A stretch of DNA of 64,000 nt from Ilex aquifolium (Eukaryota > Streptophyta > Magnoliopsida > Aquifoliales > Aquifoliaceae), in assembly GCA_951799425.1 (NCBI GenBank), contig OX637405.1, positions 17,953,089 through 18,017,088 of the forward strand, written 5' to 3'. Below the pieces are notes generated by a model. The model did not search any database, was not told the origin of the DNA, and saw nothing but the letters and a program-made list of their open reading frames with translations. Below are positions 24,262 through 60,833 of this stretch, piece after piece. A program made the translations under genes and the position numbers. The stretch's first letter is position 1, and each line of letters begins with the position of its first letter.

Positions 24262-24980
24262 GTGATTGAGTCATCCGAACCCGTAAAGGAGAGTTGTGAG
24301 CAACTCAAAGCGGTCACCACCCTTGAAAGTGGAAAACAAGTTGATAAAACCATTGTGCCAAAAGTCTCTCCTAATGCCGCATTGCCAATAGAGGATGAGA
24401 CTAAGGGTGACACCGAGGGGGGTGAGGTGAGTGAGAAAGAGAAAGTGGTTGATGAAAGTGTTCATGCATCCCCCATTCCTCCCCCTTTTCCTAATCGTTT
24501 AAAGCCACCCGTCAAGGTGGCTGATTATTCTGACATAATTGAGATGTTCAAGCAGGTAAAAATCAATATTCCACTCCTTGATGCTATAAAGCAAATCCCA
24601 TCTTGTGCCAAGATCTTGAAGGACTTGTGTATCGTGAAGAGAAGGGTAAATGTGCACAAGAAGGCATTCCTCACCAAGTAAGTGAGCTCCGTCTTGAGGA
24701 CAAACACCCCACCAAAGTTCAAGGATCCCGGATGCCCTACCATTGCTATCACAATCGAAAATTTTCGGGTGTAGCAAGCTCTTCTTGATTTGGGGGCAAG
24801 TGTCAACCTCCTACTGTACTCGGTGTATCAACAACTCCAGCTTGAAGAGTTGAAGCCAACTCCAATCAGTCTTCAGTTGGTGGATCGTAGTGTCAGAACA
24901 CCGAGGACGAGGAGAATAGTTGAGGATATTTTAGTGCAAGTCGATAAATTTTACTTTCCTTTTGATTTCATTGTGCTTGA
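24262..24980 (+). pseudogene. Element B gag-protease linker and aspartic protease, cut by element D
   Basis: A linker region (24262-24681) with '[19 protein letters not shown]' is conserved with element A. The retropepsin part starts at about 24784 with the active-site block '[10 protein letters not shown]' and continues to 24980, where element D is inserted. The reading frame resumes in phase after D at 33361. A stop at 24679-24681 and a frame change separate linker and protease. Confidence 0.75.
24976..24980 (+). repeat. Target-site duplication CTTGA, left copy (element D)
   Basis: CTTGA precedes the D 5' LTR and recurs at 33356-33360 directly after the 3' LTR. Confidence 0.9.
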
Positions 24981-25159
24981 TGATTAGTACTTAAAGTTGA
25001 CATATTATTATGACATTTTAAGACTAATTATACTTTAATGGAGTTTAAGTGATGTCATTTCAGGCCCTAAACTGAACAAGGACCCAAGAACAACAAGTAC
25101 CACACTTGGATGCAGTACCAGTACATTAGAGCCCAAAATTGGAGAAGCTTGGAGCACAG

Positions 25160-25535
25160 CCAGAACGTTCGAACGCCAACTCACGTTCGAACGTCCACAA
25201 TACACTGTAGCAGACTCAAATGCTGAAGAGAAGGCGTGTTGCAGTTAGGAAAGAAGACTGGAGCTCTGAAGTACTTGAGTGTCACGTTCGAACGCCAACT
25301 CACGTTCGAACGTGCACTTGAGTTGATGGAAGACCAGAACACTGCAGAGAGTTGGAACTGCACTTCACAGGAGACCAACAGATCACTCGAGTGAAAGGGG
25401 TCAGAGCAAATCTGGCGTTCGAACGCCCTCAGTGCAAAAACAGAAGAAACGTTCGAACGGCAGTCAACGTTCGAACGCCCTCAGTGCAAAAACAGAAAGA
25501 ACGTTCGAACTCCAACTCACATTCGAACGTCATTC
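25160..25535 (+). repeat. CGTTCGAACG palindrome array in D LTR U3 (nine sites)
   Basis: Sites lie near 25163, 25184, 25282, 25303, 25416, 25449, 25467, 25500 and 25522. Several occur as pairs about 20 bp apart, e.g. 'acgttcgaacgccaactcac' followed at once by another copy. The full form ACGTTCGAACGT is a perfect 12-bp palindrome. The 3' LTR repeats the array at about 31580-31950. Confidence 0.95.
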
Positions 25536-25621
25536 ACAGAATGGTAGCAGAGTTGTTGACTGTTCACTTGGACTTGGGCGGCAAACACTATTCTTTCACC
25601 CCCCCTTTCTCATCCTCTTGC

Positions 25622-25631
25622 CTATAAATAC
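25622..25631 (+). promoter_or_regulatory. LTR promoter TATA box of element D
   Basis: CTATAAATAC lies about 90 bp downstream of the palindrome array. The matching box in the 3' LTR is at about 32039-32048. Confidence 0.7.
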
Positions 25632-26944
25632 TCCCCTTGTTGGAGAGCTAAAAAAAAAAAGCATAGTAGGAAGTAGAATAGTGATGGAGGCTTAGACTCC
25701 CACTCTCATTGTAGTTAGTTCATTTTCCTTATGAAGTCTTTATTTTAGAGATTAGTTTGGCTTTAGCCCAACATCTCTTGCTTGTTATAACAGTAGTTTT
25801 ATGCTTATGCTTATGTTTATGCTTTCATTTCTCATGCATAGAAGAGAAATAGCTCACATCTTGGTTGAGGAAGCAACCCTCCAATTCTTGGTTGAGGAAG
25901 CCACCCTCCAAATGTGACTAGCTTTCTTCTACTTTTATTGTTCATGCATTTCACTTCCATTGCTTGAGCTTCCTTCTTTCTTAGAAGAGTGAAACTCTTC
26001 CACTTTTCCAGAGCTTTATTAAAGCCGTGAAGGGTGGAACGTGATTCACCCATTCTTTGTGGAAGATTAGCTCCGTGTTTGTTGTTACTTTATCTTTTAA
26101 AGTTCTCCACTTGGAGGGATGAGCATCACTCACTTTTCTAGCTTTACCCAAGCCATGAAGAGTGAGTAGTTTCTCATTCACTCTTTAGTGAGAGGAGAAG
26201 GGCATGTATAAGTTATCCGAGAATCACATTTGTGCAATGTTCTTTTATGCTTAACGTTTATTTCTTCTTGTTACCGGATGATTGATTGCATCTAGCAAAG
26301 CTAAGGTACTTTGTATAATTGTGAGCTCTTTCTATGACATGGATGACTCCTGCATAGAAAGACTCATCAGTTCAAGGCAAGTACCCCGGCTAGATCCTCA
26401 TGACTACCCTTCAATCTCCCCCCTTATTGTACTTCATTTAAAGAATGGACTATTAATATCATGATTGGATGTCTTGTAGAAACACTTGCTTGTTTGTAGA
26501 CGGGTTAAGTCTCGGCACAGGCAATTCTTGTAAACTTCTAGAAAGACATCGGAATCATGTTCTTAATTCTCACAATCCATCTTTATCTTCCGATTAACTT
26601 GCTGTTGACACGGGAGTTAATTGAGTTATCAAGCACAATTATGACAAACCGGATAACTGACTACATGTCCAGATCCTTGCACTAAAGAGTGACTCTTTTT
26701 AATTAGCATTTATCTCCTATTTTGTTAAGAAAATCCTCCTGGAAAGAATCTTATATTCTATCCAGCAAAACCCATATCTCACAGCAAATCTAAAAGGTTA
26801 CAATCAAAAGGTCTCTACCACTGCTTGCCTTAGAAATACCAACAAAAGTTCCCTGTGGATTCGACTCCGGACTCAAACCGGATTATTACTACAGCTTGAC
26901 CGCCTGCACTTGGGTGTACACATTGGATCAAGCCATCAAGTTTT

Positions 26945-26962
26945 TGGTGCCGTTGCCGGGGA
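26945..26962 (+). promoter_or_regulatory. Primer-binding site of element D (tRNA-Asp)
   Basis: TGGTGCCGTTGCCGGGGA differs from the site in element A by one base (TGGC to TGGT), six bases after the LTR end. Confidence 0.9.
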
Positions 26963-27284
26963 ACCTTTGAAAGGTGCTTTAAGGTAAAAGGTCTCAGCGG
27001 TGAACAGATCTCTACCATTCAACCTCGTCTCGACACTCCATGAACCTGTAAATTCGAAACATTGGGGACAATGTTCAGTTTAGGTTGGGGGGTATGATCA
27101 GTTCATCAGTTCATTTTCGTTCATAATTTTCGTAATTTTTTTTTTATTTTTTTTATTATTGTCGTAGTTGATCATGGTTGAACATTGATTGTATAAATTG
27201 ATTATGCTTATGAATCAGCTTCAATCGTCTTTGTGACTGGCAGACGTTAAAGAACCAGATAGTGAGTCTTAAAATTTAGCAATC
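26963..27284 (+). promoter_or_regulatory. D leader with putative splice junction and polypurine-like block
   Basis: The short leader ending 'aaggtaaaag' (26990) is followed directly by 'gtctcagcggtgaacag'. Further on lie 'cattggggacaatg' (27060) and a G-rich 'aggttggggggt' (27082-27093) resembling the 3' polypurine tract. A small hairpin CGTCT-N11-AGACG (27226-27246) lies about 40 bases before the ORF start and is conserved at the matching place in A (twice) and C. Confidence 0.7.
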
Positions 27285-27695
27285 ATGGATGTAAATCTTT
27301 TTTGGTTTAGCCTAGGAATCCTACGTACTTTTCCACCTGATGTACATACCATGATCATGAGAAAAACAAGATTAGTAAAGAAGGCTGAAATCAAAGAAAA
27401 ACAAGCGAAACCCCTCTGTGGCAGAAGTAGCTTTGCCAAACGCCGTCGTGCAAAAAGGCTTGGTGCTTGTAAACAGTGTGGCAGATACTTTCACGAAAAA
27501 AGGTACAACCAGTGTTCTGAACCAATTTCTGGTCGCGCACTTGATCGATTAGACTGGATAGTGAATGGGCTGAGTAAGGATTACCCTGATACGCCATGCT
27601 ATTCCGGTATTGTCCTTAACTGATTTGTGAGAGAGGAAGTTGGGAGAGTTACTGGTTGTCCATTTTACACAGACACAGAGGGAGACTCAGATTAG
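27285..27695 (+). pseudogene. Basic Cys/His-rich protein of element D, with a late premature stop
   Basis: The frame from 27285 encodes the family seen at 48293 and 50125. It has an N-terminal 'MDVNLFWFSLG' block, 'DVHTMIMRK', a basic 'KRRRAKRLG' stretch, and C-x2-C-x4-H-x6-C in 'GACKQCGRYFHEKRYNQC', then 'GLSKDYPDTPC'. A TGA at 27621-27623 (one change from the codon in element A) cuts the last 24 residues; the frame would otherwise run to 27695. The zinc-binding core is before the stop, so a 112-residue product is possible. Function unknown. By its motif it is likely a nucleic-acid-binding protein. Confidence 0.75.
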
Positions 27696-27811
27696 ATAAT
27701 CTTCTGTAGGAAAAGTATACTTTTGTTGGGGGAGTGAATGCCAAAGGTCCGAATTTGTTGTAAAAAGTGTAAAAATATTTTTGTATAAATTTCTTTTTGA
27801 CTGAAATGAAA

Positions 27812-27890
27812 ATATGGGCCGAGTAAGGAATGCCCCAAAATACCAACCTGAAGCGTGGGTAGGGGTTCATCCTGAGACGCCTTAGTTTTT
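27812..27890 (+). other. Conserved block downstream of the Cys/His ORF
   Basis: 'tatgggccgagtaaggaat', then 'gtgggtagggg' and 'cctgagacgcc'. The same block occurs twice in element A (50665-50735 and 50795-50865) and once in C (minus, about 59775-59850). Part of it echoes the coding stretch 'gggctgagtaaggattacc' inside the ORF itself. The role is unknown. Confidence 0.7.
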
Positions 27891-27959
27891 GAATTAAATT
27901 TGTGTGTTTTGTCTTCTTTGATTGTATATAGTGCAATAGAGAAAAATTTTAATTTTTGG

Positions 27960-28249
27960 TTCAACGTTCGAACGCCAGGTAACGTTCGAACGTTGACTGC
28001 TTACAGTACTCAGCCTCTGATGAAGCTTCTGCTGGAACTTGAAAGTACTGGGAGCTCAGTCCGTTCGAACGCCAATAGACCGTTCGAACGAAGAGTACTT
28101 ACAGTACTTTGGCCTCTGACAGAAACACAAAAGTACTGGGAGCTCACCACGTTCGAACGCCAAACCACGTTCGAACGATTTGTTTAAATTCCTTCTACCC
28201 ACGTTCGAACGTCACCAACGTTCGAACGTTACAACTCAGGCTATAAAAG
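27960..28249 (+). promoter_or_regulatory. Internal promoter for the env-position ORF of element D
   Basis: Eight CGTTCGAACG-type sites (near 27963, 27982, 28061, 28080, 28150, 28168, 28202, 28219) lie upstream of a strong TATA box, TATAAAAG at 28242-28249. The ORF starts 227 bases further on. The layout copies that of the LTR promoter (palindrome array, then TATA). A diverged ~90-bp unit with 'agtactgggagctca' and 'cagtact..gcctctga' repeats between the pairs. Confidence 0.75.
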
Positions 28250-28451
28250 CCTGGCTCGTCTTCTTCATTTCAAAACCCTCCAAAACTTCTGAAAACCCGA
28301 AAAACCTTGGAGACCCTGCACTACCCAGACCCCAAAACCTCAACCATTCTCCATCTTTAACAAAAATCAACACTCCCAAGACATTTTCCACTTCAAGAAG
28401 ATCCATCTTCACAAAGAAATCAAAAATTTCAAAACCATCCAGCTGAAAAAC

Positions 28452-28476
28452 AAAAAAAAAAAAAAAAAAAAAAAAA
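28452..28476 (+). repeat. A25 run touching the env-position start codon
   Basis: A run of 25 A residues, the last being the A of the ATG at 28476. Element C lacks the run at the matching place. Confidence 0.95.
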
Positions 28477-29570
28477 TGCCAAGAGTCAAGCTTCCTGCCA
28501 GGAGGAACCCAAACACCCAAGAGCCAAACTTTGTCGAAGAAGTGGTGGAGGTGAGAGAAGGATTACCACCACTCACAAGGAGATACGACAAGACTCGGTT
28601 TCTCACAGCTCTAAAAGCAGACAGGTATGAAAATTTCTACCAAAACAAAGCCATTGTTTGTGAAAGAGATGTGATTTTGGCTGATTTTGCGGATTTGGGG
28701 ATTTTTGCAGAAATGGAAAGGAGGGGATGGTTGTTTTATTTGAGGAACGGCGGTGAGGCCGTAGTCGACTTGGTGCGGGAGTTTTACTCCAACGCCGAGA
28801 TTATCGACGGGGAAATTCGAACTTATGTAAGGGGAGTCCATGTGGACGTTGATAAGGATTATATTTGGGGGGCAAGGCAAGAAGTGCCTCGGGTCCCAAA
28901 TCCCGTTTATCCCCCAAGGAAGAATGTGGCGATGAATGAGGTGGGGAGAGAACTAACGGGAGTACCCAACTTTTCATGGGCAGGGAAGAAATTTTTTAGA
29001 CAAGGGGAGCTTAGTGATAAATACAAAATGTTAAATTTGATTGCGGTGTCAAACTTTGCCCCAATTGGAAGAAAAAATGAAATTCTCCCCGACATGGCCC
29101 GATTGTTGTATGCTAATGGAAAAGGGCAAAGCATTGACATCCCCTCCCTAGTGTTGAATGAGATGAAGAAGGGGTGTGATGTGAAGAGGAATTCGCTTCC
29201 CTTCGGCACCCTCGTGACTAAGATATGCAAGGAGCATGGGGTGAGGGTAAAGCCTGAGATGGAAATCCAAAAGCCAATGGGGCCACTGAACAAGACTTCC
29301 TTCCGGAGAAGCCAAAGTCATAGTGGCGGCCCAGCGGCAAGGCAAGAAGAGCCCCCGGCCCACGGAGTGGATGAGGTACAAGAGGAGCTTGATGAGATGG
29401 AGAGAGAGGGAGATCAGCCGGCAGAGGCGGAACCTAGCACCAGCACCAGCACCCGACGCTCCTTATTGGACGTCATGCTTAGCATTGAAGCTAAGCAGGA
29501 TGAGATCCTTAGGCTTTTGAGGGGTGGACATGGTGGACATGGAGGAGATGGTGCACAAGGAGGAGAGTGA
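28476..29570 (+). CDS. Env-position ORF of element D (plant putative transposon protein domain)
   Basis: 364 residues in one open frame, intact. A central domain (about residues 80-250) contains 'RRGWLFYLRNGGEAVVDLV', 'REFYSNAEI', 'RGVHVDVDKDYIWG' and 'NEMKKGCDVKRNSLPFGTL'. It is the domain widely labelled putative plant transposon protein in Athila-like elements (I recall Pfam PF20167; unverified). The C-terminal third is acidic and coiled-coil-like ('DEVQEELDEMERE'), then Ser/Thr-rich, ending in a Gly/His tail. No signal peptide or membrane segment is evident, so it is not an obvious envelope protein in spite of its position. Its own promoter appears to lie at 27960-28249. The same ORF is broken in C and diverged in B. 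Confidence 0.85.
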   Translation: MPRVKLPARRNPNTQEPNFVEEVVEVREGLPPLTRRYDKTRFLTALKADRYENFYQNKAIVCERDVILADFADLGIFAEMERRGWLFYLRNGGEAVVDLVREFYSNAEIIDGEIRTYVRGVHVDVDKDYIWGARQEVPRVPNPVYPPRKNVAMNEVGRELTGVPNFSWAGKKFFRQGELSDKYKMLNLIAVSNFAPIGRKNEILPDMARLLYANGKGQSIDIPSLVLNEMKKGCDVKRNSLPFGTLVTKICKEHGVRVKPEMEIQKPMGPLNKTSFRRSQSHSGGPAARQEEPPAHGVDEVQEELDEMEREGDQPAEAEPSTSTSTRRSLLDVMLSIEAKQDEILRLLRGGHGGHGGDGAQGGE

Positions 29571-31384: not shown

Positions 31385-31397
31385 AGGTTGGGGAGTG
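31385..31397 (+). promoter_or_regulatory. Polypurine tract of element D
   Basis: AGGTTGGGGAGTG lies directly before the 3' LTR start TGATTAG. Confidence 0.85.
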
Positions 31398-33355
31398 TGA
31401 TTAGTACTTAAAGTTAACATATTATTATGACATTTTAAGACTAATTGTACTTTAATGGAGTTTAAGTGATGTCATTTCAGGCCCTAAACTGAACAAGGAC
31501 CCAAGAACAACAAGTACCACACTTGGATGCAGTACCAGTACATTAGAGCCCAAAATTGGAGAAGCTTGGAGCACAGCCAGAACGTTCGAACGCCAACTCA
31601 CGTTCGAACGTCCACAATACACTATAGTAGACTCAAATGCTGAAGAGAAGGCGTGTTGCAGTTAGGGAAGAAGACTGGAGCTCTGAAGTACTTGAGTGTC
31701 ACGTTCGAACGCCAACTCACGTTCGAACGTGCACTTGAGTTGATGGAAGACCAGAACACTGCAGAGAGTTGGAACTGCACTTCACAGGAGACCAACAGAT
31801 AACTCGAGTGAAAGGGGTCAGAGCAAATCTGGCATTCGAACGCCCTCAGTGCAAAAACAGAAGAAACGTTCGAACGGCAGTCAACGTTCGAACGCCCTCA
31901 GTGCAAAAACAGAAAGAACGTTCGAATGCCAACTCATGTTCGAACGTCATTCACAGACTGGCAGCAGAGTTGTTGACTGTTCACTTGGACTTGGGCGGCA
32001 AACACTATTCTTTCACCCCCCCTTTCTCATCCTCTTGCCTATAAATACTCCCCTTGTTGGAGAGCTAAAAAAAAAAAGCGTAGTAGGAAGTAGAATAGTG
32101 ATGGAGGCTTAGACTTCCACTCTCATTATAGTTAGTTCATTTTCCTTATGAAGTCTTTATTTTAGAGATTAGTTTGGCTTTAGCCCAACATCTCTTGCTT
32201 GTTATAACAGTAGTTTTATGCTTATGCTTATGTTTATGCTTTCATTTCTCATGCATAGAAGAGAAATAACTCACATCTTGGTTGAGGAAGCAACCCTCCA
32301 ATTCTTGGTTGAGGAAGCCACCCTCCAAATGTGACTAGCTTTCTTCTACTTTTATTGTTCATGCATTTCACTTCCATTGCTTGAGCTTCCTTCTTTCTTA
32401 GAAGAGTGAAACTCTTCCACTTTTCTAGAGCTTTATTAAAGCCGTGAAGGGTGGAACGTGATTCACCCATTCTTTGTGGAAGATTAGCTCCGCGTTTGTT
32501 GTTACTTTATCTTTTAAAGTTCTCCACTTGGAGGGATGAGCATCACTCACTTTTCTAGCTTTACCCAAGCCATAAAGAGTGAGTAGTTTCTCATTCACTC
32601 TTTAGTGAGAGGAGAATGGCATGTATAAGTTATCCGGGAATCACATTTGTGCAATGTTCTTTTATGCTTAACGTTTATTTCTTCTTGTTACCGGATGATT
32701 GATTGCATCTAGCAAAGCTAAGGTACTTTGTATAATTGTGAGCTCTTTCTATGACATGGATGACTCCTGCATAGAAAGACTCATCAGTTCAAGGCAAGTA
32801 CCCCGGCTAGATCCTCATGACTACCCTTCAATCTCCCCCCTTATTGTACTTCATTTAAAGAATGGACTATTAATATCATGATTGGATGTCTTGTAGAAAC
32901 ACTTGCTTGTTTGTAGACGGGTTAAGTCTCGGCACAGGCAATTCTTGTAAACTTCTAGAAAGACATCGGAATCATGTTCTTAATTCTCACAATCCATCTT
33001 TATCTTCCGATTAACTTGCTGTTGACACGGGAGTTAATTGAGTTATCAAACACAATTATGACAAACCGGATAACTGACTACATGTCCAGATCCTTGCACT
33101 AAAGAGTGACTCTTTTTAATTAGCATTTATCTCCTATTTTGTTAAGAAAATCCTCCTGGAAAGAATCTTATATTCTATCCAGCAAAACCCATATCTCACA
33201 GCAAATCTAAAAGGTTACAATCAAAAGGTCTCTACCACTGCTTGCCTTAGAAATATCAACAAAAGTTCCCTGTGGATTCGACTCCGGACTCAAACCGGAT
33301 TATTACTACAGCTTGACCGCCTGCACTTGGGTGTACACATTGGATCAAGCCATCA
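31398..33355 (+). mobile_element. 3' LTR of element D
   Basis: 1,958 bp, the same length as the 5' LTR, with about 20-25 differences by eye. Several are C-to-T or G-to-A, e.g. 'ctggcgttcg' to 'ctggcattcg', which breaks one palindrome. It ends GCCATCA, followed by the target duplication CTTGA at 33356-33360. Confidence 0.92.
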
Positions 33356-33360
33356 CTTGA

Positions 33361-41991: not shown

Positions 41992-42025
41992 AAAAAGGTG
42001 AAAAAAAAAAAAAAAAAAAAAAAAA
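41992..42025 (+). promoter_or_regulatory. Putative splice donor and A25 run in the gag-pol leader
   Basis: AAAAAG|GTGAAA (junction 41997/41998) fits a plant 5' splice site and aligns with the point where D's leader ends (26990). It runs into 25 A residues at 42001-42025, about 40 bases before gag. Confidence 0.6.
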
Positions 42026-42066
42026 CCTCTCTTTTAGTATATATTTTTGCCTTATTGTGAATAATT

Positions 42067-45000
42067 TTGTTTTTTTTTATGACTGACACCAAACGTCTCT
42101 TTCAAAATTTGCCTGCTGAATCTTCTGGGTCTGTAAATCAACTTGAACCACCTTCACCCAAATCAGAAGCCGATTCTTGTAACTTCAATATGGCAAATAT
42201 TGATAGGCAGGGTGAAGATCATGTGAGAGAGGGGGAAGTACCCAACATTCGAACATTGCGAGATTACTTACATCCCACAAGGAATAGTGTCCCCTCTTGT
42301 TTTATTTTTCCTGAAAATGCTCCCCTCTTTACTGTAAAGCCGGGGACAGTGCATTTATTGCCCGTGTTTCATGGATTGGATGCAGAAAATCCGTATCTGC
42401 ATATCAAAGACTTCGAAGAAGTGTGTGGAACATTTCAAGACAATTCTGAATTGACAAAAATGAAATTGTTTTCTTTCTCTTTGAGGGATAAAGCCAAACA
42501 ATGGTTACATTCTTTAAAATCTCTTTCAATCCCTAATTGGCAGGCTCTACAGAATGAATTTTTCAGAAAATTCTTTCCTCTGCACCGCACTAATACACTC
42601 AAAAGACAAATCATGAATTTTTCGGTCAAAGAAGGGGAAACTTTTTATCAAAGCTGGGAGAGATTCAAAGATCTTCTCCAATCTTGTCCACACCATGCTT
42701 TTGAAAATTGGACTTTGACAGGTTTTTTCTATGATTCCTTGCCCACTAGGTTACGACAGTTTGTCGAAATGATGGCTCAAGGAGAGTTCATGGGAAAAAG
42801 TCCGGAGGAGGCATTCAATTTTTTTGATACCATATCTGACAGTTCTCAAATGTGGGACTCAGCATCTCCTACCACTGTAGAAGCCAAACCACCTACTTTC
42901 CAAGGGGGTAAGTATGTCTTGAGAGAAGATGATGATCTTAGAGCAAAAATGTCCACTTTGTCTCGAAAGCTTGAAGCTTTAGAGATGAAAAAGGTCCATC
43001 AAGTTGATGTTGTCCCTCCCACAGAACAAGTGTGTGGGATTTGTGCGCTAACAGGGCATCCTACTGGGGAATGCCCGACCATACCGGCATTCAAAGAAGT
43101 TTTGTTGGAACAAACAAATGCCATTTCCAATTTCAACAAGCCTTACTCCAACCCATACTCTGAAACATACAATCCAGGGTGGCGGAACCATCCAAATTTC
43201 AGTTGGAGAAACACACAACCAACCCCCATGAATCAGCAACAAAGTCCACAACAACCACCTCAAGGACCTCCACAATATCCTCAGCAACAAGGGCCACCAC
43301 ATCCATCTCAAGTACCTCCACAATATCCTCCATATCAACCACCACACAAAAGGAACCTTGAAGATACATTGAATCAATTCATGCAAACCCAAATGAGCTA
43401 TAACAATAGTTCTACTCAGGCTTTTATTGATTTCAAGGCCCAGACCACACAATCTTTTGAGGATCTCAAAGGCCACATTCAAAAGCTGACCCAGTCCATG
43501 AGCACACATGAGAAGGGAAAATTTCCTGCCCAACCAAAGCCTCCACAAGGCCAATTTCAGGTGGAAAATCCATCAACTATGGAAACTCCACAAGACCAAG
43601 CCAAAACTGTCACCACATTGAGAAGTGGCAAAAAGATTGACAAGTCCATCAGAAACATGCTGATTCCAGACCCAAAACCAGTCTCAATTCCAGCCAACCC
43701 ATTAAGTGAGCCAGAACTTGAAAAAAAAAATGACTGTGATCCCATGATTGAACAAGAACCAGAGCCATCAAGGGAAGAAGAACCCTCGTGTTCTATTCCT
43801 GCTCCTTTCCCTCATAGACTCAAGAGCATACAGAAAGCAAACAATCAGTCTGAAATTTACGAGCTTTTCAAGCAAGTAAAAATCAACATCCCACTTCTGG
43901 ATGCAATTCAACAGGTTCCAGCTTATGCCAAGTTTCTAAAAGACTTGTGCACAGTCAAAAGAAGCCAAAATGTTCAAAAAAGAGCCTTCTTCACAGAACA
44001 AGCCAGTGCCCTACTTCAACAAAAAATTCCTTCAAAGTGCGAAGATCCAGGGTGCCCCACTGTGTCATGTGTCATTGGAAATTTCAAAATTGAGCAAGCA
44101 TTGTTAGACCTTGGAGCTAGTGTCAACTTGCTTCCTTTCTCTGTCTACCAGCAGTTGGGTTTAGGTGAACTGAAACCCACTTGCACCACACTCCAATTGG
44201 CAGATAGATCTGTAAAAATTCCTAGGGGTATTGTTGAAGATGTACTTGTCCAAGTGGATAATTTTGTCTTCCCTGTAGACTTCATTGTTCTAGATACTCA
44301 TCCAGAAGTTCATTCAGAAACTCCAATTCCTGTCATTCTTGGTAGACCTTTTCTAGCAACCTCCAATGCACTAATCAATTGCAGGAATGGTATTATGAAA
44401 TTGAATTTTGGGGATATGACTCTCGAAATGAACATCTTTGACATTGCAAAACACCCAAGAGAGTACGAGGAGGTAGGAGAAATAAATTCCATTGAGTCAT
44501 TAATACAAGCACATCTGAATGACTCATTCTGTGAGGATCTTAGTGAATCAACTTTGTCAAAATCTGACTCATCTGACTCTCTGGAACAAAACTCCATTGA
44601 GTGTCCTACCTTCAATGTGGGGACATGGGCTCCTAAATTTGAAGAAATTTCATCAAGTGGTACAAAACCACTATCTTCAAGTGAAAGGCCACCAAAGCCT
44701 GAACTGAAACCGCTCCAATCTGATCTCAAGTATGCATTTTTAGGTGAGGATAAATCTTACCCAGTGGTAATTTCTTCAAAAATCACAGACTTGCAAGAAG
44801 CTCAATTAATTGAAGTTCTTAAAAGTCATAAAAGCACCATTGGGTGGACCATCGCTGATTTGAAAGGTATAAGCCCGTTAATTTGTAATCATGCCATATA
44901 CCTTGAAGAGGACTCAAAACCCTCTCGTCAAATGCAGCGACGATTGAATCCTCACATGAAAGAGGTTGTGAGACTGGAAGTGCTCAAACTCCTGGATGCA

Positions 45001-47679
45001 GGGATAATTTTTCCTATCTCCGATAGCAAATGGGTTAGTCCAACCCAAGTTGTACCAAAGAAATCTGGAGTCACAGTAGTCAAAAATGATGCAAATGAAC
45101 TCGTGCCAACACGAGTCGTCACAGGATGGCGAATGTGCATTGACTATCGAAAACTCAATCTGGTGACTAGAAAAGACCATTTTCCTCTTCCCTTCCTTGA
45201 CCAAGTCCTCGAGAGAATAGCAGGCCATGAATTTTACTGTTTCCTGGATGGGTATTCCGGATACAATCAAATTGAGATAGCTCTGAATGACCAAGAAAAG
45301 ACCACATTCACATGTCCATTTGGCACTTTTGCATTCAAAAGGATGCCATTCGGACTTTGTAACGCTCCTGCAACATTTCAAAGATGTATGCTGAGCTTGT
45401 TCAGTGACATGGTCGAAAAATTTTTGGAAATCTTCATGGATGATTTCTCGGTATATGGTGACTCATTTGATTTGTGTCTAGTTAACCTAGAAAAAGTTTT
45501 GATGAGATGCAAAGAGGCAAATCTGGTGCTTAACTGGGAGAAATGTCATTTCATGGTGAATCAAGGCATTGTCTTGGGTCACATTGTGTCGTCTGAAGGT
45601 ATGAAAGTTGATAAAGCAAAAATTGATTTGATAAGGAATCTTCCTGCTCCTAGGGTTGTGAAGGATGTTCGATCATTCTTAGGTCATGCAGGATTCTACA
45701 GAAGGTTCATAAAAGACTTCAGCACCATAGCAAAACCTATGTGTCATCTTTTGAGTCAGGATGTCATTTTTGACTGGAATGAAGCGTGCCAAAAATCCTT
45801 TGACAAACTCAAAGGCATGTTAATTTCTGCCCCAATAATGCAACCTCCTGACTGGACTCTACCCTTTGAATTGATGTGTGATGCTAGTGACTATGCTGTA
45901 GGTGCTGTTTTGGGACAAAGAAAAGATAAGAAGCCACATGTGATTTACTATGCAAGTAAAACTTTAAATGATGCCCAAATGAATTACTCAACAACTGAAA
46001 AGGAATTACTTGCTGTAGTATTTGCATTGGAAAAATTTCGATCTTATCTTGTTGGTTCTTCTGTTACTGTATTTACTGACCATGCAGCACTGAAATTTTT
46101 GCTTACAAAAAAAGATGCCAAACCAAGGCTCTTGAGATGGATCCTCTTGCTCCAAGAATTTGATTTAGTCATTAAGGACAAAAAGGGTGTGGAAAATGTG
46201 GTGGCAGATTATCTGTCGAGATTAACTTATGAATTTCATGAGGATGGACTGCCAATCAATGAAAAATTCCCCGATGAACAACTATTCAGGATTGATGAGA
46301 CCCCATGGTATGCTGATATTGCTAATTTCCTTGCTACCGGAACACTTCCTCCATTTTTCACTCCCATGGACAAAAAGAAGTTTCTGAGGGAGGTCCGCAA
46401 TTTCTTTTGGGAAGATCCCTACGTATTCAAGTACTGTAAGGATCAGATCATAAGACGTTGCATCCCCGCTCAGGAAAGTAGACAGGTAATAACATTTTGT
46501 CATTCAGAAGCATGTGGTGGTCATTTTTCATCTCGAAAAACCGCTGCAAAAATCTTGCAGTGTGGATTTTACTGGCCCACACTTTTCAAAGATGTCCATG
46601 CTTTTTGCGTAACTTGCGATAGATGTCAAAGGTTGGGAAACATTTCAAAAAGAAACATGATGCCCTTAAACCCAATTTTGGTAATCGAAATTTTTGACTG
46701 TTGGGGTATCGATTTTATGGGACCATTTCCCCCCTCCTTTGGCTATCTATACATTTTAGTAGCCGTAGACTATGTATCCAAATGGGTTGAAGCAATTCCA
46801 TGCCGAAATAATGATCATCAAACAGTGATCAAGTTTTTAAAAGAAAATATTTTATCTCGGTTTGGAATTCCAAAATCCATTATAAGTGATGGGGGTTCTC
46901 ATTTTTGCAATCGTCCCTTCTGGAATTTAATGAAAAAATACTTGATTTTTCACAAAATTGCAACCCCTTATCATCCACAGACCAGTGGACAAGCTGAGTT
47001 AGCTAATCGGGAGATCAAATTAATTTTGGAAAAAACGGTGAACCCAGATCGCAAAGATTGGTCATTAAGACTAACTGATGCGCTCTGGGCATACCGAACT
47101 GCTTTTAAAACAATTTTGGGCATGTCTCCCTATCGATTAGTCTATGGAAAGCCATGTCACTTGCCTGTGGAATTGGAACATAGGGCATACTGGGCTATTA
47201 AAGCAATGAATTTTGACTTAGACAAGGCTGGACTGTCACGGAAGCTTCAGATTAATGAATTGGAGGAATTGAGAAATGAAGCATATGAAAATGCTAAGAT
47301 TGCAAAAACCAGGATGAAAATTTTTCATGACAAGAACATAGTGCGAAAATCTTTTGAACCTGATCAAAAGGTTCTACTTTTCAATTCGAGACTTCGCCTA
47401 TTTCCTGGTAAGTTGAAATCAAGATGGACTGGACCATACATTGTTAAAAAGGTATTTGAACATGGGGCAGTGGAAGTGGAGAACCCATCAAACGGTAACA
47501 TTTTTACCGTCAATGGTCAGCGATTAAAACCCTTTGTGGAGAATTTTGTCCAAAATGTGGAGACCATTTTTTTTATGGATCCAGAAAGTATCTCCGGAAA
47601 TCACTCCGGAGATTACGCTTGCCGACACAAAAAAGGGTCGGGTCAATCAGACACCCGACACGATGGACTGCCTTTATAA
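42067..47679 (+). CDS. Gag-Pol polyprotein of element A
   Basis: 1,870 codons, no stop. Gag lies at about residues 80-300 ('[20 protein letters not shown]', '[19 protein letters not shown]'). A zinc knuckle at about 323-336 is C-x2-C-x4-H-x4-C ('[14 protein letters not shown]'). A Pro/Gln-rich linker follows. The aspartic protease has '[11 protein letters not shown]' at about 680 (DLG where most relatives have DTG or DSG). RT has '[11 protein letters not shown]' and FMDD at about 1122. RNase H starts about 1265 ('[17 protein letters not shown]', 'FTDHAAL'). Integrase has an HHCC domain from about 1478 and a D, D-35-E core ('WGIDFMGPF', 'ISDGGSHF', 'GQAELANRE'; 35 residues between the last D and E). 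No chromodomain. One frame for gag and pol is usual in this lineage. The start may be the second Met (42079). All catalytic residues I can see are present, so this is the likely source of activity for its non-autonomous relatives. Confidence 0.95.
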
Positions 47680-47800
47680 GGCTCCCATCGTTTTTTTTTT
47701 TCCTTTTTCTTTTCCCCACCGCCTTTACTCTTTTCTTTTCTTTTTCTTCTTCTTTTTCTTCTCTTTTCTTCTTCTTCTCCACTGCATCTGGTCTTCTGTA
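47620..47800 (+). promoter_or_regulatory. Internal promoter 1 of element A, overlapping the pol stop codon
   Basis: A TGCCGACAC motif at 47620-47628, then GCCTTTATAAGGC at 47670-47682, in which the pol stop TAA (47677-47679) is part of the TATA-like core. A ~115-nt pyrimidine-rich patch (47688-47800) follows, as in many plant core promoters. C has the same arrangement (minus, 61025-60860), and a weaker copy precedes module 2 (49251-49400). Confidence 0.55.
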
Positions 47801-47825
47801 CCACGATCCAACCCATAACAGTACC

Positions 47826-47972
47826 ATGTCTGCATTTTTCGATGACCCTATCCTCCTTCTCATGATCTACATTTGTTTGTATTATTTACTTATGGCTGTT
47901 CTTCTTCGGGCCGCACTGATGATCAAGGGTTTTTGTCCCAATGAAAACCCAGACCACCCCAAAGATGCTTAA
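47826..47972 (+). CDS. Small membrane peptide, module 1 of element A
   Basis: 48 residues: 'MSAFFDD' N-terminus, one strongly hydrophobic segment (about residues 8-33, 'PILLLMIYICLYYLLMAVLL'), then a short basic/polar tail with 'NPDHP'. Peptides of the same plan and size occur at 49462-49593 and in C at 60687-60833 (minus). All three share an N-terminal polar start, a single membrane segment and an 'NPD' tail, and each sits between the internal promoter and a splice acceptor. I recognise no family. It could anchor a complex at membranes. Its small size means chance must be weighed, but three positionally matched copies support it. Confidence 0.6.
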   Translation: MSAFFDDPILLLMIYICLYYLLMAVLLRAALMIKGFCPNENPDHPKDA

Positions 47973-47977
47973 TCTCT

Positions 47978-47994
47978 GTTTTTTTTGGTATAGG
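47978..47994 (+). promoter_or_regulatory. Putative 3' splice acceptor 1 of element A
   Basis: T-rich 'ttttttttggtatag' ends with AG at 47992-47993, followed by 'gtcatcggcgattgaacag', which corresponds to the start of D's body at 26991 ('gtctcagcggtgaacag'). Confidence 0.6.
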
Positions 47995-48063
47995 TCATCG
48001 GCGATTGAACAGATCTCCACAGTTAACTGCGTATTCAAGCTCTACAAACCGAAAAAATCGAAA

Positions 48064-48098
48064 CATTGGGGACAATGTTCAGTCTAGGTTGGGGGGTG
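48064..48098 (+). promoter_or_regulatory. Internal polypurine-like block 1 of element A
   Basis: CATTGGGGACAATG, then 'aggttggggggtgag'. The G-rich part is nearly identical to the true polypurine tract at 52432-52444. Confidence 0.6.
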
Positions 48099-48292
48099 AG
48101 ATCTACAGTTTACAGTAGTTGATCTGCAGTTTATAGTAGTTGATCTGCGCAGGTTGAACCCGTAAAATTTTCTGTAAATTTTTTTTGTTTTTATTGTTGT
48201 ATCTGTTCAGATTATGTACCTTGTATTAATGATAATATCTGTGAGTCAGTTTTGATCGTCTTTGTGACTGGAAGACGTAAAAGAACCAGATA

Positions 48293-48724
48293 ATGGGTCA
48301 TAGAGTAGCAATCATGGATGTAAATCTTTTTTGGTTTAGTCTAGGAGTCCTACGTACTTTTCCATCTGATGTACATACCATGATCATGAGAAAAGCAAGA
48401 TTAGTAAGGAAGGCTGAAATCAAAGAAAAACAAGCGAAACCCCTCTGTGGCCGAAGCAGTTATTCTAAACGTCGTCGTGCTACACGACTTGGTGCCTGTA
48501 AACAGTGTGGCAGATACTTTCATGAGAAAAGATACAACAAATGTTCTGAACCAATTTCCGGTCGCGCAACCGATCGATTAAACTGGATAAAACATGGGCT
48601 GAGTAAGGATTACCCTGATACGCCATGCTATTCCGGTACTGTGCTTAACCGATTTGTGAGAGAGGAAGTTGGGAGAGTTACTGGTTGTCCATTTTACACA
48701 GATACGGAGGGGGAATCGGATTGA
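48293..48724 (+). CDS. Basic Cys/His-rich protein, module 1 of element A
   Basis: 143 residues (the conserved start may be the Met at residue 8, 48314). Layout: 'LFWFSLGVLRTFPSDV', 'IMRKARLVRKAEIKEKQ', a Cys at 52, a basic run 'KRRRATRLG', then C69-x2-C72-x4-H77-x6-C84, 'DRLNWIKHGLSKDYPDTP' and an acidic C-terminus. Single-knuckle zinc proteins with a basic arm usually bind RNA or DNA. The order (basic arm, C-x2-C knuckle, then a W-I..G....P segment) recalls the small cysteine-rich nucleic-acid-binding proteins of carlavirus-like plant RNA viruses; this is resemblance of layout only. A hairpin CGTCT-N11-AGACG lies upstream (48257-48277). Close relatives are at 50125, 27285 and 59969-60375 (minus). 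Confidence 0.8.
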   Translation: MGHRVAIMDVNLFWFSLGVLRTFPSDVHTMIMRKARLVRKAEIKEKQAKPLCGRSSYSKRRRATRLGACKQCGRYFHEKRYNKCSEPISGRATDRLNWIKHGLSKDYPDTPCYSGTVLNRFVREEVGRVTGCPFYTDTEGESD

Positions 48725-48879
48725 CCTCTGTGGAAAAGTGTACTGAGGTTGGGAATGAAAGCTGAAGGTCCGAGTCTGTAAAAAAATTTATTTTATTTAA
48801 TTTTATGTTATTTTTTTATGTTCTGTACAAACTCTGTTATTTTTAATGCATGTCACTTTTTTTGTTGTATAGTTTTGTT

Positions 48880-49085
48880 GTTCCTATTTTCAGATATCGG
48901 TGCCAGGTCAAAGCTCAAGGGCAAGGTGTTCTCTTACCCTACTCATTTTTTTTTTTATTGTGCGTCATTAATTATCATATCTTTTTGTTACATTGAGGAC
49001 AATGCATGAACCAAGTTAGGGGGTGAGGTTGCATTATTTGTGGGAATATTCTGCATGGATATCCACTCTGCCGACACTGCGCACC

Positions 49086-49131
<46 letters not shown>

Positions 49132-49259
49132 AGCCTGCACCATTATTGTGCCTGCTGCCATGATTTGCGTCTGCCGACACTGCCGAAAGTAAAAAGGGGG
49201 GGGGCCTCCCATTCTTTTTCTTCTTCTTTTTCTTTTCTTATGCCAACTCCTGCCGACAT

Positions 49260-49290
<31 letters not shown>

Positions 49291-49461
49291 TCTGAGGAAT
49301 GCCTTTATTAGGCCTTCCACCTTTTTCTTTTTCTTCCACCATCACCGGTGTTGGTTCCCCCTTTTCTCTTTCCCTTCTCTTCTTCTCTTTCTTTTTCTTC
49401 TCTTGTTCTTCGTCGTCGTTCTTTCTGTTCTCTGTAAAAACAACTCACCCCCTGTAAATCC
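48880..49461 (+). other. Spacer between modules 1 and 2, with A-runs and promoter-like parts
   Basis: 48890-49035 matches B's post-pol region (36775-36900), including 'cattgaggacaatgcatgaa' and 'agttagggggtgagg' (48991-49027). Then A38 (49089-49126), TGCCGACAC copies at 49069-49077 and 49172-49180 with TGCCGACAT at 49251, A24 (49267-49290), a degenerate 'gcctttattaggcc' box (about 49301) and a pyrimidine-rich patch to ~49430. It reads as a second, less perfect internal promoter. Confidence 0.55.
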
Positions 49462-49593
49462 ATGACCATATACGCCGACGATCCAGTCTTTTGTTTAATA
49501 ATTTGTCTTATATGTTTGTATGTGTACCTGGGTGCTCTTTGTGTTCTCACACTTAGGATGAGGAGTTTCCAGAGAAACCCAGATATTCCTTGA
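49462..49593 (+). CDS. Small membrane peptide, module 2 of element A
   Basis: 43 residues: 'MTIYADDP', a hydrophobic segment of about 24 residues ('VFCLIICLICLYVYLGALCV'), then a tail ending 'FQRNPDIP'. 'DDP' before the membrane segment and 'NPD' in the tail match the module 1 peptide at the same positions; the middle is diverged but equally hydrophobic. It is followed after 29 bases by a splice-acceptor-like site. Too short to call by itself; the support is positional and by family. Confidence 0.55.
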   Translation: MTIYADDPVFCLIICLICLYVYLGALCVLTLRMRSFQRNPDIP

Positions 49594-49605
49594 GTTGAGT
49601 AATTG

Positions 49606-49623
49606 TTGTATTTTGTTTGTAGG
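49606..49623 (+). promoter_or_regulatory. Putative 3' splice acceptor 2 of element A
   Basis: 'ttgtattttgtttgtag' with AG at 49621-49622, then 'gtttcggcagatgaacag', corresponding again to D's body start at 26991. Confidence 0.6.
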
Positions 49624-50124
49624 TTTCGGCAGATGAACAGATCTGTACCTTACAACCTTATCTCCACTAGCCCACTAGTGCTAGTGTTGTAAGTATTGCT
49701 TGTTTGTAATTTCATTTATATATATATTTGAAATTTGATATCTACAGCTTGTGATTCTCATGGCTATTTGTCTTTATAAGATTCCTTGTGAATTTGCTAT
49801 GCCCTCCAATGACTATGTTGTAATTGCTGTTACAGTAAGATCTGATAATTTGCCAAATAATCCTCCTCAATCCTATGTATTCTGGGTTTATTCCTTCTTC
49901 GTTAATTTGTTTGTTTCATCCTAAATCTTCTTCCTTCCGCTTGTATTTTGGTATACTTTCTCTAGTTTCGTATTTGTAATTTTAGTTTTAGATCTGAAAA
50001 AAAAAAAAAAAATTTATTTTTTCTGGATCGCGTTCTTTTAAGTATTTGTACCTGTATTTCATGATCACATCGGATGCAGCTTCAACTGTCTTTGTGACTG
50101 GCAGACGTTAAAAATCCAGATAGA

Positions 50125-50550
50125 ATGTCTTTAGTCTTAGCAAGCATGGATCCTAAACTTTTTTGGTTTAGTCTAGGAGTTCTACGCATTTTCCCATCTG
50201 ATGTGCATGCTGTGATAATGAGAAAAGCAAGGGATGTGAGAAAAATTGAGATCCGAGAGAAACAACAACAACCATTGTGTGGCAGAAGCAATTTTGCTAA
50301 ACATCGTCGTTCCAAACGACTGGGTGCTTGTTACCATTGTGGCAGGATATTTCATATGAAAAAACATAATCAGTGTTCTGAACCAATTTCGGGTCGTGCA
50401 ACCGATCGATTAAACTGGATAGTGTATGGGCTGAGTAAGGATTATCCTGACACGCCATCTTATGCCAGTCCAGGACTTACAAGTTATGTGCGACAAGAAG
50501 TTGGAAGGGTCACTGATAATGACATAGATCCAAGCAATGACTCGGATTAG
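50125..50550 (+). CDS. Basic Cys/His-rich protein, module 2 of element A
   Basis: 141 residues, same family as 48293 with substantial divergence: 'LFWFSLGVLRIFPSDVHAV', 'KHRRSKRLG', C69-x2-C72-x4-H77-x6-C84 ('CYHCGRIFHMKKHNQC'), 'DRLNWIVYGLSKDYPDTP'. It keeps Cys52 but lacks the two late cysteines (112, 132) of module 1, so those are not part of the zinc site. The conserved hairpin is at 50087-50107. Both copies are open, which suggests that divergence between them has been under constraint; a codon-based test is needed. Confidence 0.8.
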   Translation: MSLVLASMDPKLFWFSLGVLRIFPSDVHAVIMRKARDVRKIEIREKQQQPLCGRSNFAKHRRSKRLGACYHCGRIFHMKKHNQCSEPISGRATDRLNWIVYGLSKDYPDTPSYASPGLTSYVRQEVGRVTDNDIDPSNDSD

Positions 50551-60664: not shown

Positions 60665-60685
60665 CCTACAAATAAAAACACAAAA
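60665..60685 (-). promoter_or_regulatory. Putative 3' splice acceptor of element C
   Basis: Minus strand 'ttttgtgtttttatttgtag' with AG at 60667-60666. The next bases (60665 on) 'gtctcagcgggtgaacag' match D's body from 26991 almost exactly. Confidence 0.65.
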
Positions 60686-60686
60686 A

Positions 60687-60833
60687 TTACTCATCTGTGC
60701 ACAGATCTGGATTTCGGGTAGGCTGAAAATCTTTATGTGTGAGTGCGAATAAAAGAAGAACACCCATGAGCAAATATAAGATTAAAATGCAAAACATGAA
60801 GCAAAATATAGTGTTTGTGGAGTGTGTGGTCAT
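60687..60833 (-). CDS. Small membrane peptide of element C
   Basis: 48 residues from the Met at 60833: 'MTTHSTN', a hydrophobic segment of about 24 residues ('FCFMFCILILYLLMGVLLLF'), then a tail with 'RNPDLCTDE'. Length equals that of A's module 1 peptide. 'LYLLMGVLL' lines up with 'LYYLLMAVLL', and the 'NPD' tail is shared. Although most of C is broken, this frame is open. It is preceded by a pyrimidine-rich tract and the TATA/stop overlap, and followed by the acceptor. Confidence 0.6.
   Translation of the reverse strand: MTTHSTNTIFCFMFCILILYLLMGVLLLFALTHKDFQPTRNPDLCTDE

Follow-up and report, generated by a model that had tools for sequence, protein, structure and literature searches.

Gag-pol-less copies in an Athila-like retrotransposon family as probable reinsertions of spliced RNA, formed many times

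Element D, which lies in the analysed 64-kb stretch of DNA (the window), and its kin elsewhere in the genome are best read as LTR copies of a spliced subgenomic RNA that formed many separate times, a reading to which we assign a probability of about 0.88 from the DNA sequences. Since the spliced copies are dispersed among full-length elements and their derivation from a single clade is rejected, packaging, copying and integration of the spliced RNA most likely took place on repeated occasions. The original prediction had held that spliced RNA of this family was reinserted and gave rise to a non-autonomous line; the reinsertion stands, on the GT at the junction, the fixed joins and the varied target duplications, whereas the single line gives way to the many events seen on the trees. 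If the reading is right, a plant LTR retrotransposon repeatedly converts spliced RNA into new insertions, by a route earlier proposed for the one-step loss of gene blocks; the origin of some gag-pol-less copies would be explained, and the genome would hold a fossil record of splice-site use in the family that can be consulted without RNA.

The full LTRs, primer-binding site (PBS), polypurine tract and target duplication that had been claimed for D are all present, with LTRs 98.8% identical and cttga on both sides, and the coordinates given for its leader, A-like up to the closing AAAAG and followed directly by the exon, were confirmed. The features of D, all on the plus strand, are:

24976..24980, target site duplication cttga, left copy, read at both ends of D
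24981..26938, 5' LTR, 1958 bp (self BLAST with the 3' LTR)
26939..26990, spacer, primer-binding site and leader, ending in AAAAG
26987..26994, splice-like junction 26990/26991, AAAG/GTCT
26991..28475, second exon start, CATTGGGGACAATG / GGTTGGGGGG motif and spacer, from the alignment with C
27285..27623, 112-aa ORF with Viral_NABP/Carla_C4 domain (Pfam)
28476..29570, 364-aa ORF in env position, Transposase_32 (PF20167; Pfam)
31385..31397, 3' polypurine tract
31398..33355, 3' LTR
33356..33360, target site duplication cttga, right copy

The exon side of the join, from 26991, opens with GTCTCAGCGG, and positions 26989-28091 of D align with 60667-59571 of the full-length element C at 91% identity (self BLAST). 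D is devoid of gag-pol and of a 48-aa membrane peptide, both of which otherwise lie between leader and exon, and comparison with C and with the related element A bore out the claim that the missing stretch is the predicted intron. By its sequence, the structure of D equals what splicing of a full-length relative would yield. A PBS-like TGGTGCCGTTGCCGGGGA starts 5-6 bases past the LTR of D, and an Athila-like PBS presumably pairs with tRNA-Asp. A PBS about 5 bp past the LTR, a spacing like that of D, is described for Calypso and Diaspora in the available part of PMC1142308. An Rfam search of D at the gathering threshold and a tRNA scan of the 64-kb window gave no match.

For A, a GT donor after the leader (AAAAAG/GTGAAA, 41997/41998) and two matching acceptors at 47993 and 49622 had been proposed, and for C an acceptor-like sequence before the exon at 60665 (minus strand); all were found in place. 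The first acceptor of A reads TTTTTTTTGGTATAG then GTCATCGGCG (border 47993/47994), the second TTTTGTTTGTAG then GTTTCGGCAG (border 49622/49623). In C the exon starts at 60665 (minus), with TTTTTATTTGTAG directly ahead of the border and GTCTCAGCGGGTGAACAG after it, and the acceptor reads TTTGTAG.

41998..47993, plus strand, predicted intron of A from the donor to the first acceptor, containing gag-pol
49612..49622, plus strand, second acceptor of A
60666..60686, minus strand, acceptor of C, TTTTTGTGTTTTTATTTGTAG

The leader of C lies just outside the window and was read from the genome (L029); it runs AACCTTTAAAAGGTGTTTTAAGGTGAAAG then GTAAAAAGACC, with GT exactly at D's junction, in what we take to be a good donor context. 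Full-length leaders of the C/D type had been expected to carry GT at this junction, and all four that were read without selecting for it do so (C, L049, L050 and L051, the last three located via the exon, not via the leader). The leader holds three successive GTs: site 1, AAAG/GT; site 2, TTTAAG/GT; and site 3, AAAG/GTAAAAAG. In D, sites 1 and 2 (26973/26974 and 26983/26984) are unused and site 3 (26990) is used. On the acceptor side, four full-length elements from the DNA search or inside the window were read without asking for AG, and show TAG in C, L047 and L048 and AAG in L046, with a T-rich tract before each. The exon was located in 14 of 18 further full-length elements, again with a T-rich tract ahead of it; the pattern used for these 14 itself demands A[GA] in front, so their AG is no evidence. 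The exon was unlocated in L057, L061 (mutated exon), L063 and L068, and at least one full-length copy, L053, has a decayed acceptor (TAA). All three donors and the acceptor have AGGT in common, so that the join may lie anywhere within these four bases. L055 is interrupted shortly after the leader.

The genome (800 Mb) was searched with the leader and exon of D, spliced copies thus being selected by similarity to D. Among the 40 matches listed, 37 are joined (D and 36 others) and three are unspliced, starting at the exon. The exon position is identical throughout the 36 fetched joined copies, and the leader ends at site 3 in 28 (a count that takes in L021 and L044, with mutated leaders), at site 2 in four (L022, L023, L024, L030) and at site 1 in four (L033, L037, L038, L039). 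An exact-pattern scan of the genome, requiring AAG ahead of the exon, found 26 joins (13, 4 and 9 at sites 3, 2 and 1) and none in the reversed control; six of them, all at site 1, were new relative to the fetched copies. With a looser pattern that admitted any leader end within 30 bases, 18 joins were obtained, at the three GTs only (9, 3 and 6), and again none in the reversed control. Altogether at least 43 gag-pol-less joins, 29 at site 3, four at site 2 and 10 at site 1, lead to a single acceptor; the breakpoints, whose scatter would have spoken against the original prediction, are thus not scattered. Variants with one additional exon base at the site-3 join occur at seven places in the pattern scan, all within fetched copies. 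In L018 and L028 the exon opens with GACTCG, not GTCTCA.

A leader pattern including site 3 has 490 matches in the genome at up to two mismatches, and among the 100 of these that were listed at least five are, by their coordinates, spliced copies (L011, L012, L016, L017, L020). Forty leaders were sampled (every fifth of the 100-match list, plus 20 from its start, one known copy omitted); 39 of them run into gag, one is spliced and none is joined elsewhere, in a sample that retains site 3 and is blind to joins ahead of it. Because the search pattern already contains the site-3 GT, this sample is no test of the GT itself.

Insertion of D and its kin took the LTR route, with two LTRs and a 5-bp duplication. 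The eleven copies in which both ends are readable (D, L009, L012, L015, L016, L017, L019, L023, L024, L027, L028) have eleven distinct 5-bp target duplications, in line with the expectation that gag-pol-less copies would differ in this respect. Of 21 stretches compared, 17 yielded LTR pairs, partly incomplete, with a divergence of 0.2-2.2%, and four yielded no pair. An origin as processed pseudogenes made by LINEs was ruled out by the LTR pair and the 5-bp duplication.

Trees were computed for two regions, one of 430 bases from the LTR end with 33 bases of leader and one of 640 bases from the exon, with C, L046-L048 and 18 elements from the systematic leader sample (14 of them with the exon) as full-length rows; L033 (long branch) and A1 were left out of the clade tests. 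Spliced copies are dispersed among full-length elements on the LTR-end, exon and combined trees. A single clade of spliced copies was rejected for the exon (36 spliced against 18 full-length rows, p-AU 2e-35), the LTR end (21 against 22 rows, p-AU 1e-50) and both regions combined (21 against 18 rows, p-AU 6e-80), and again when the four full-length rows C and L046-L048 alone were retained (p 3e-4, 3e-9 and 1e-5); descent from a single founder is rejected on these trees. The label spliced or full-length changes 14 times on the tree, against a mean of 13 for shuffled labels, with changes counted in both directions and many inner branches weak; the well-supported branches alone require at least eight changes. 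Some spliced copies do cluster together (L018 with L028) and may have amplified themselves. Most, as far as their sequences tell, do not look like members of one line.

Next to the join, spliced and full-length copies have three pairings of a leader variant with an exon variant in common, in a comparison for which 32 of the 37 spliced copies could be parsed (all except L026, L034, L037, L039 and L040):

GTGTTTT..GTGAAAG with GCGGG, spliced L017, L019, L025; full-length C and six others
GTGCTTT with AGTGG, spliced L010, L012-L015, L024; full-length L070, L071
GTGCTTT with GCGG, spliced D, L009, L022, L023; full-length L054, L064

For the third lineage, the L031 group of 11 copies, the sample contains no full-length partner.

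These shared pairs bear on the stronger of two rival accounts, in which one old founder, spliced or deleted, passed its gag-pol-less middle on to full-length elements when reverse transcription switched templates between RNAs packaged together; the flanks would then resemble many subfamilies because the middle had been exchanged. Such switching is active in the family: two versions of the Transposase_32 ORF (ORF2; 28476-29570 in D), about 79% alike, are dispersed over the tree (L009, L013, L019, L020, L023, L028) and point to recombination or template switching between subfamilies. The clustering of L018 with L028, copies whose two flanks belong to different subfamilies, also fits a founder, as do the 11 copies, out of 21, whose two flanks have different nearest full-length relatives, although mostly within one subfamily. 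Yet two switches near the join, one on either side, would be needed again and again, and the variant pairs beside the join are those of full-length copies. In the remaining 10 of 21 copies the nearest full-length element is the same for both flanks (for D it is L064, at 1.1% and 1.9%; for L015 it is L070, at 1.1% and 1.4%), and distances to full-length elements, taken from the 5' and from the 3' flank, agree as closely for spliced copies (mean rho 0.55) as they do among the full-length elements themselves (0.52). A founder alone would, moreover, leave the three donor sites unexplained, and we regard this account as improbable. The second rival account invokes deletions that arose again and again through microhomology at AGGT, either in the DNA or while the RNA was being reverse-transcribed, and without splicing. 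It draws on the recurrence of the four bases at every donor and at the acceptor, and we consider it very improbable. When 110 leader bases of C are compared with the 582 bases ahead of its NABP ORF, 308 joins with at least four homologous bases are available (97 with at least five), only four of them at the acceptor; none of the sampled site-3 leaders, in which joins ahead of site 3 are invisible, is joined anywhere but to the exon; and the acceptor looks like the end of an intron, with T-tract and AG, in C and twice in A.

A further proposal concerns the number of donors and is compatible with the spliced-RNA explanation, so that its standing is judged apart from that of the two accounts above. 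Joins at sites 1 and 2 might be slippage products of site-3 copies between AAGGT repeats, with only one true donor. The repeats lie 7 bases apart, AAAAGGT repeats lie 17 bases apart in one subfamily, and the site-2 copies L022 and L023 group with D, a site-3 copy; against this, the site-2 copies (L022/L023, L024, L030) occupy three positions on the trees, with partly weak support. We hold slippage to be a possible, if somewhat doubtful, source of these joins.

According to the spliced-RNA explanation, full-length elements would transcribe R-U5, PBS and leader, and splicing from one of three adjacent GT donors in the leader to the single acceptor behind pol would take out gag-pol and the membrane peptide, as the DNA joins indicate. 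The product would retain R, U5, PBS, the polypurine tract and the 3' R, could be packaged with the help of Gag-Pol from full-length elements, as its genomic products imply, and would then undergo reverse transcription, presumably tRNA-primed, and integration with the 5-bp duplication seen in the end product. On the trees, this would have happened repeatedly and from different full-length subfamilies. It suggests a packaging signal independent of the interval between donor and acceptor. We think it unlikely, though worth stating, that packaging and integration of spliced RNA are a regular side-product of the family's cycle and that the copies are satellites, which would express the NABP-like and Transposase_32 proteins unspliced and perhaps help or regulate full-length elements; with a donor no more than about 50 bases past the LTR, packaging signals would be kept in the spliced RNA.

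The family of D, A and C appears from its sequence to be Athila-like Ty3/Gypsy, of the plant endogenous retrovirus lineage. A has Retrotrans_gag, Asp_protease_2, RVT_1, RT_RNaseH and Integrase_H2C2 above the Pfam cut-off, in Gypsy order, and rve at 28 bits, under the cut-off of 32.6, with the domain split by a piece end; the search used three 500-aa pieces, with residues 501-600 and the final 270 outside them. Bagy-2, a plant Ty3/Gypsy element, is reported to splice its env RNA; that report is said to concern the transcript only, whereas the D family offers integrated DNA copies. For Diaspora of soybean, packaging of a misspliced subgenomic RNA was proposed as a one-step loss of env, and the available part of the paper gives no junction (PMC1142308); the D family, in contrast, has lost gag-pol, at exact junctions and in many events. 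The Arabidopsis Athila families that lack pol are described, in the accessible portion of PMC2410132, as non-autonomous, with intact ORFs, and as taken to move in trans; they resemble D in being non-autonomous and differ in keeping gag and in being treated as families, and splicing is mentioned in the reference list only. The SDARE of murine leukaemia virus, as described in the part of PMC2925334 at hand, derives from an alternatively spliced SD' RNA that is packaged, reverse-transcribed and integrated and is then directly transcribed as a defective element. The likeness to D is a spliced RNA leading to an integrated copy, which in the D family is deduced from DNA products; SDARE concerns a virus in cell lines, the D family a plant genome with tens of copies. 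The D-family donor lies in the leader, unlike SD', which is reportedly inside gag. In the open-licence papers searched, no plant LTR element was found reported to have spliced copies reinserted; the relevant items among those listed were the Diaspora proposal and SDARE, and reinsertion of spliced retroelement RNA was found described there only for the mouse retrovirus.

The first ORF past the D join matches Pfam Viral_NABP (2e-9) and Carla_C4 (5e-6) and ends 24 codons before the first NABP copy of A would. The corresponding frame in C runs on the minus strand from 60375 downward and is broken; A has two:

48314..48724, plus strand, first NABP ORF of A, 136 aa, Viral_NABP 8e-11
50146..50550, plus strand, second NABP ORF of A, 134 aa, Viral_NABP 5e-12

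A retrotransposon ORF thus appears to be related to the nucleic-acid-binding (cysteine-rich) protein family of carlaviruses. Its dN/dS is 0.28 among spliced copies (n=8), 0.45 among full-length copies (n=8) and 0.23 for the first copy of A against the rest, calculated from frames of 136 codons, which make up 17 of the 32 located, broken frames being excluded. A profile search with NABP returned 360 proteins at E <=0.01, and the 120 of these that were listed include proteins from the genomes of Rhamnella, Orobanche, Xanthoceras and Populus. No retrotransposon with a carlavirus-type protein was found reported in the open-licence literature; an AlkB domain is described in orchid Gypsy elements in the available part of PMC9289625.

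The membrane peptide of C has no Pfam family above cut-off. Its frame measures 48 codons in 12 of the 13 full-length copies with a located start, and in C it lies between pol and the acceptor, within the predicted intron:

60687..60833, minus strand, 48-aa membrane peptide ORF of C

A carries two units of acceptor plus NABP ORF (47994-50550), with a small hydrophobic ORF before each acceptor, and a motif of CATTGRGGACAATG and a G-run, resembling the 3' polypurine tract, stands past the first acceptor, with a second instance near 48990.
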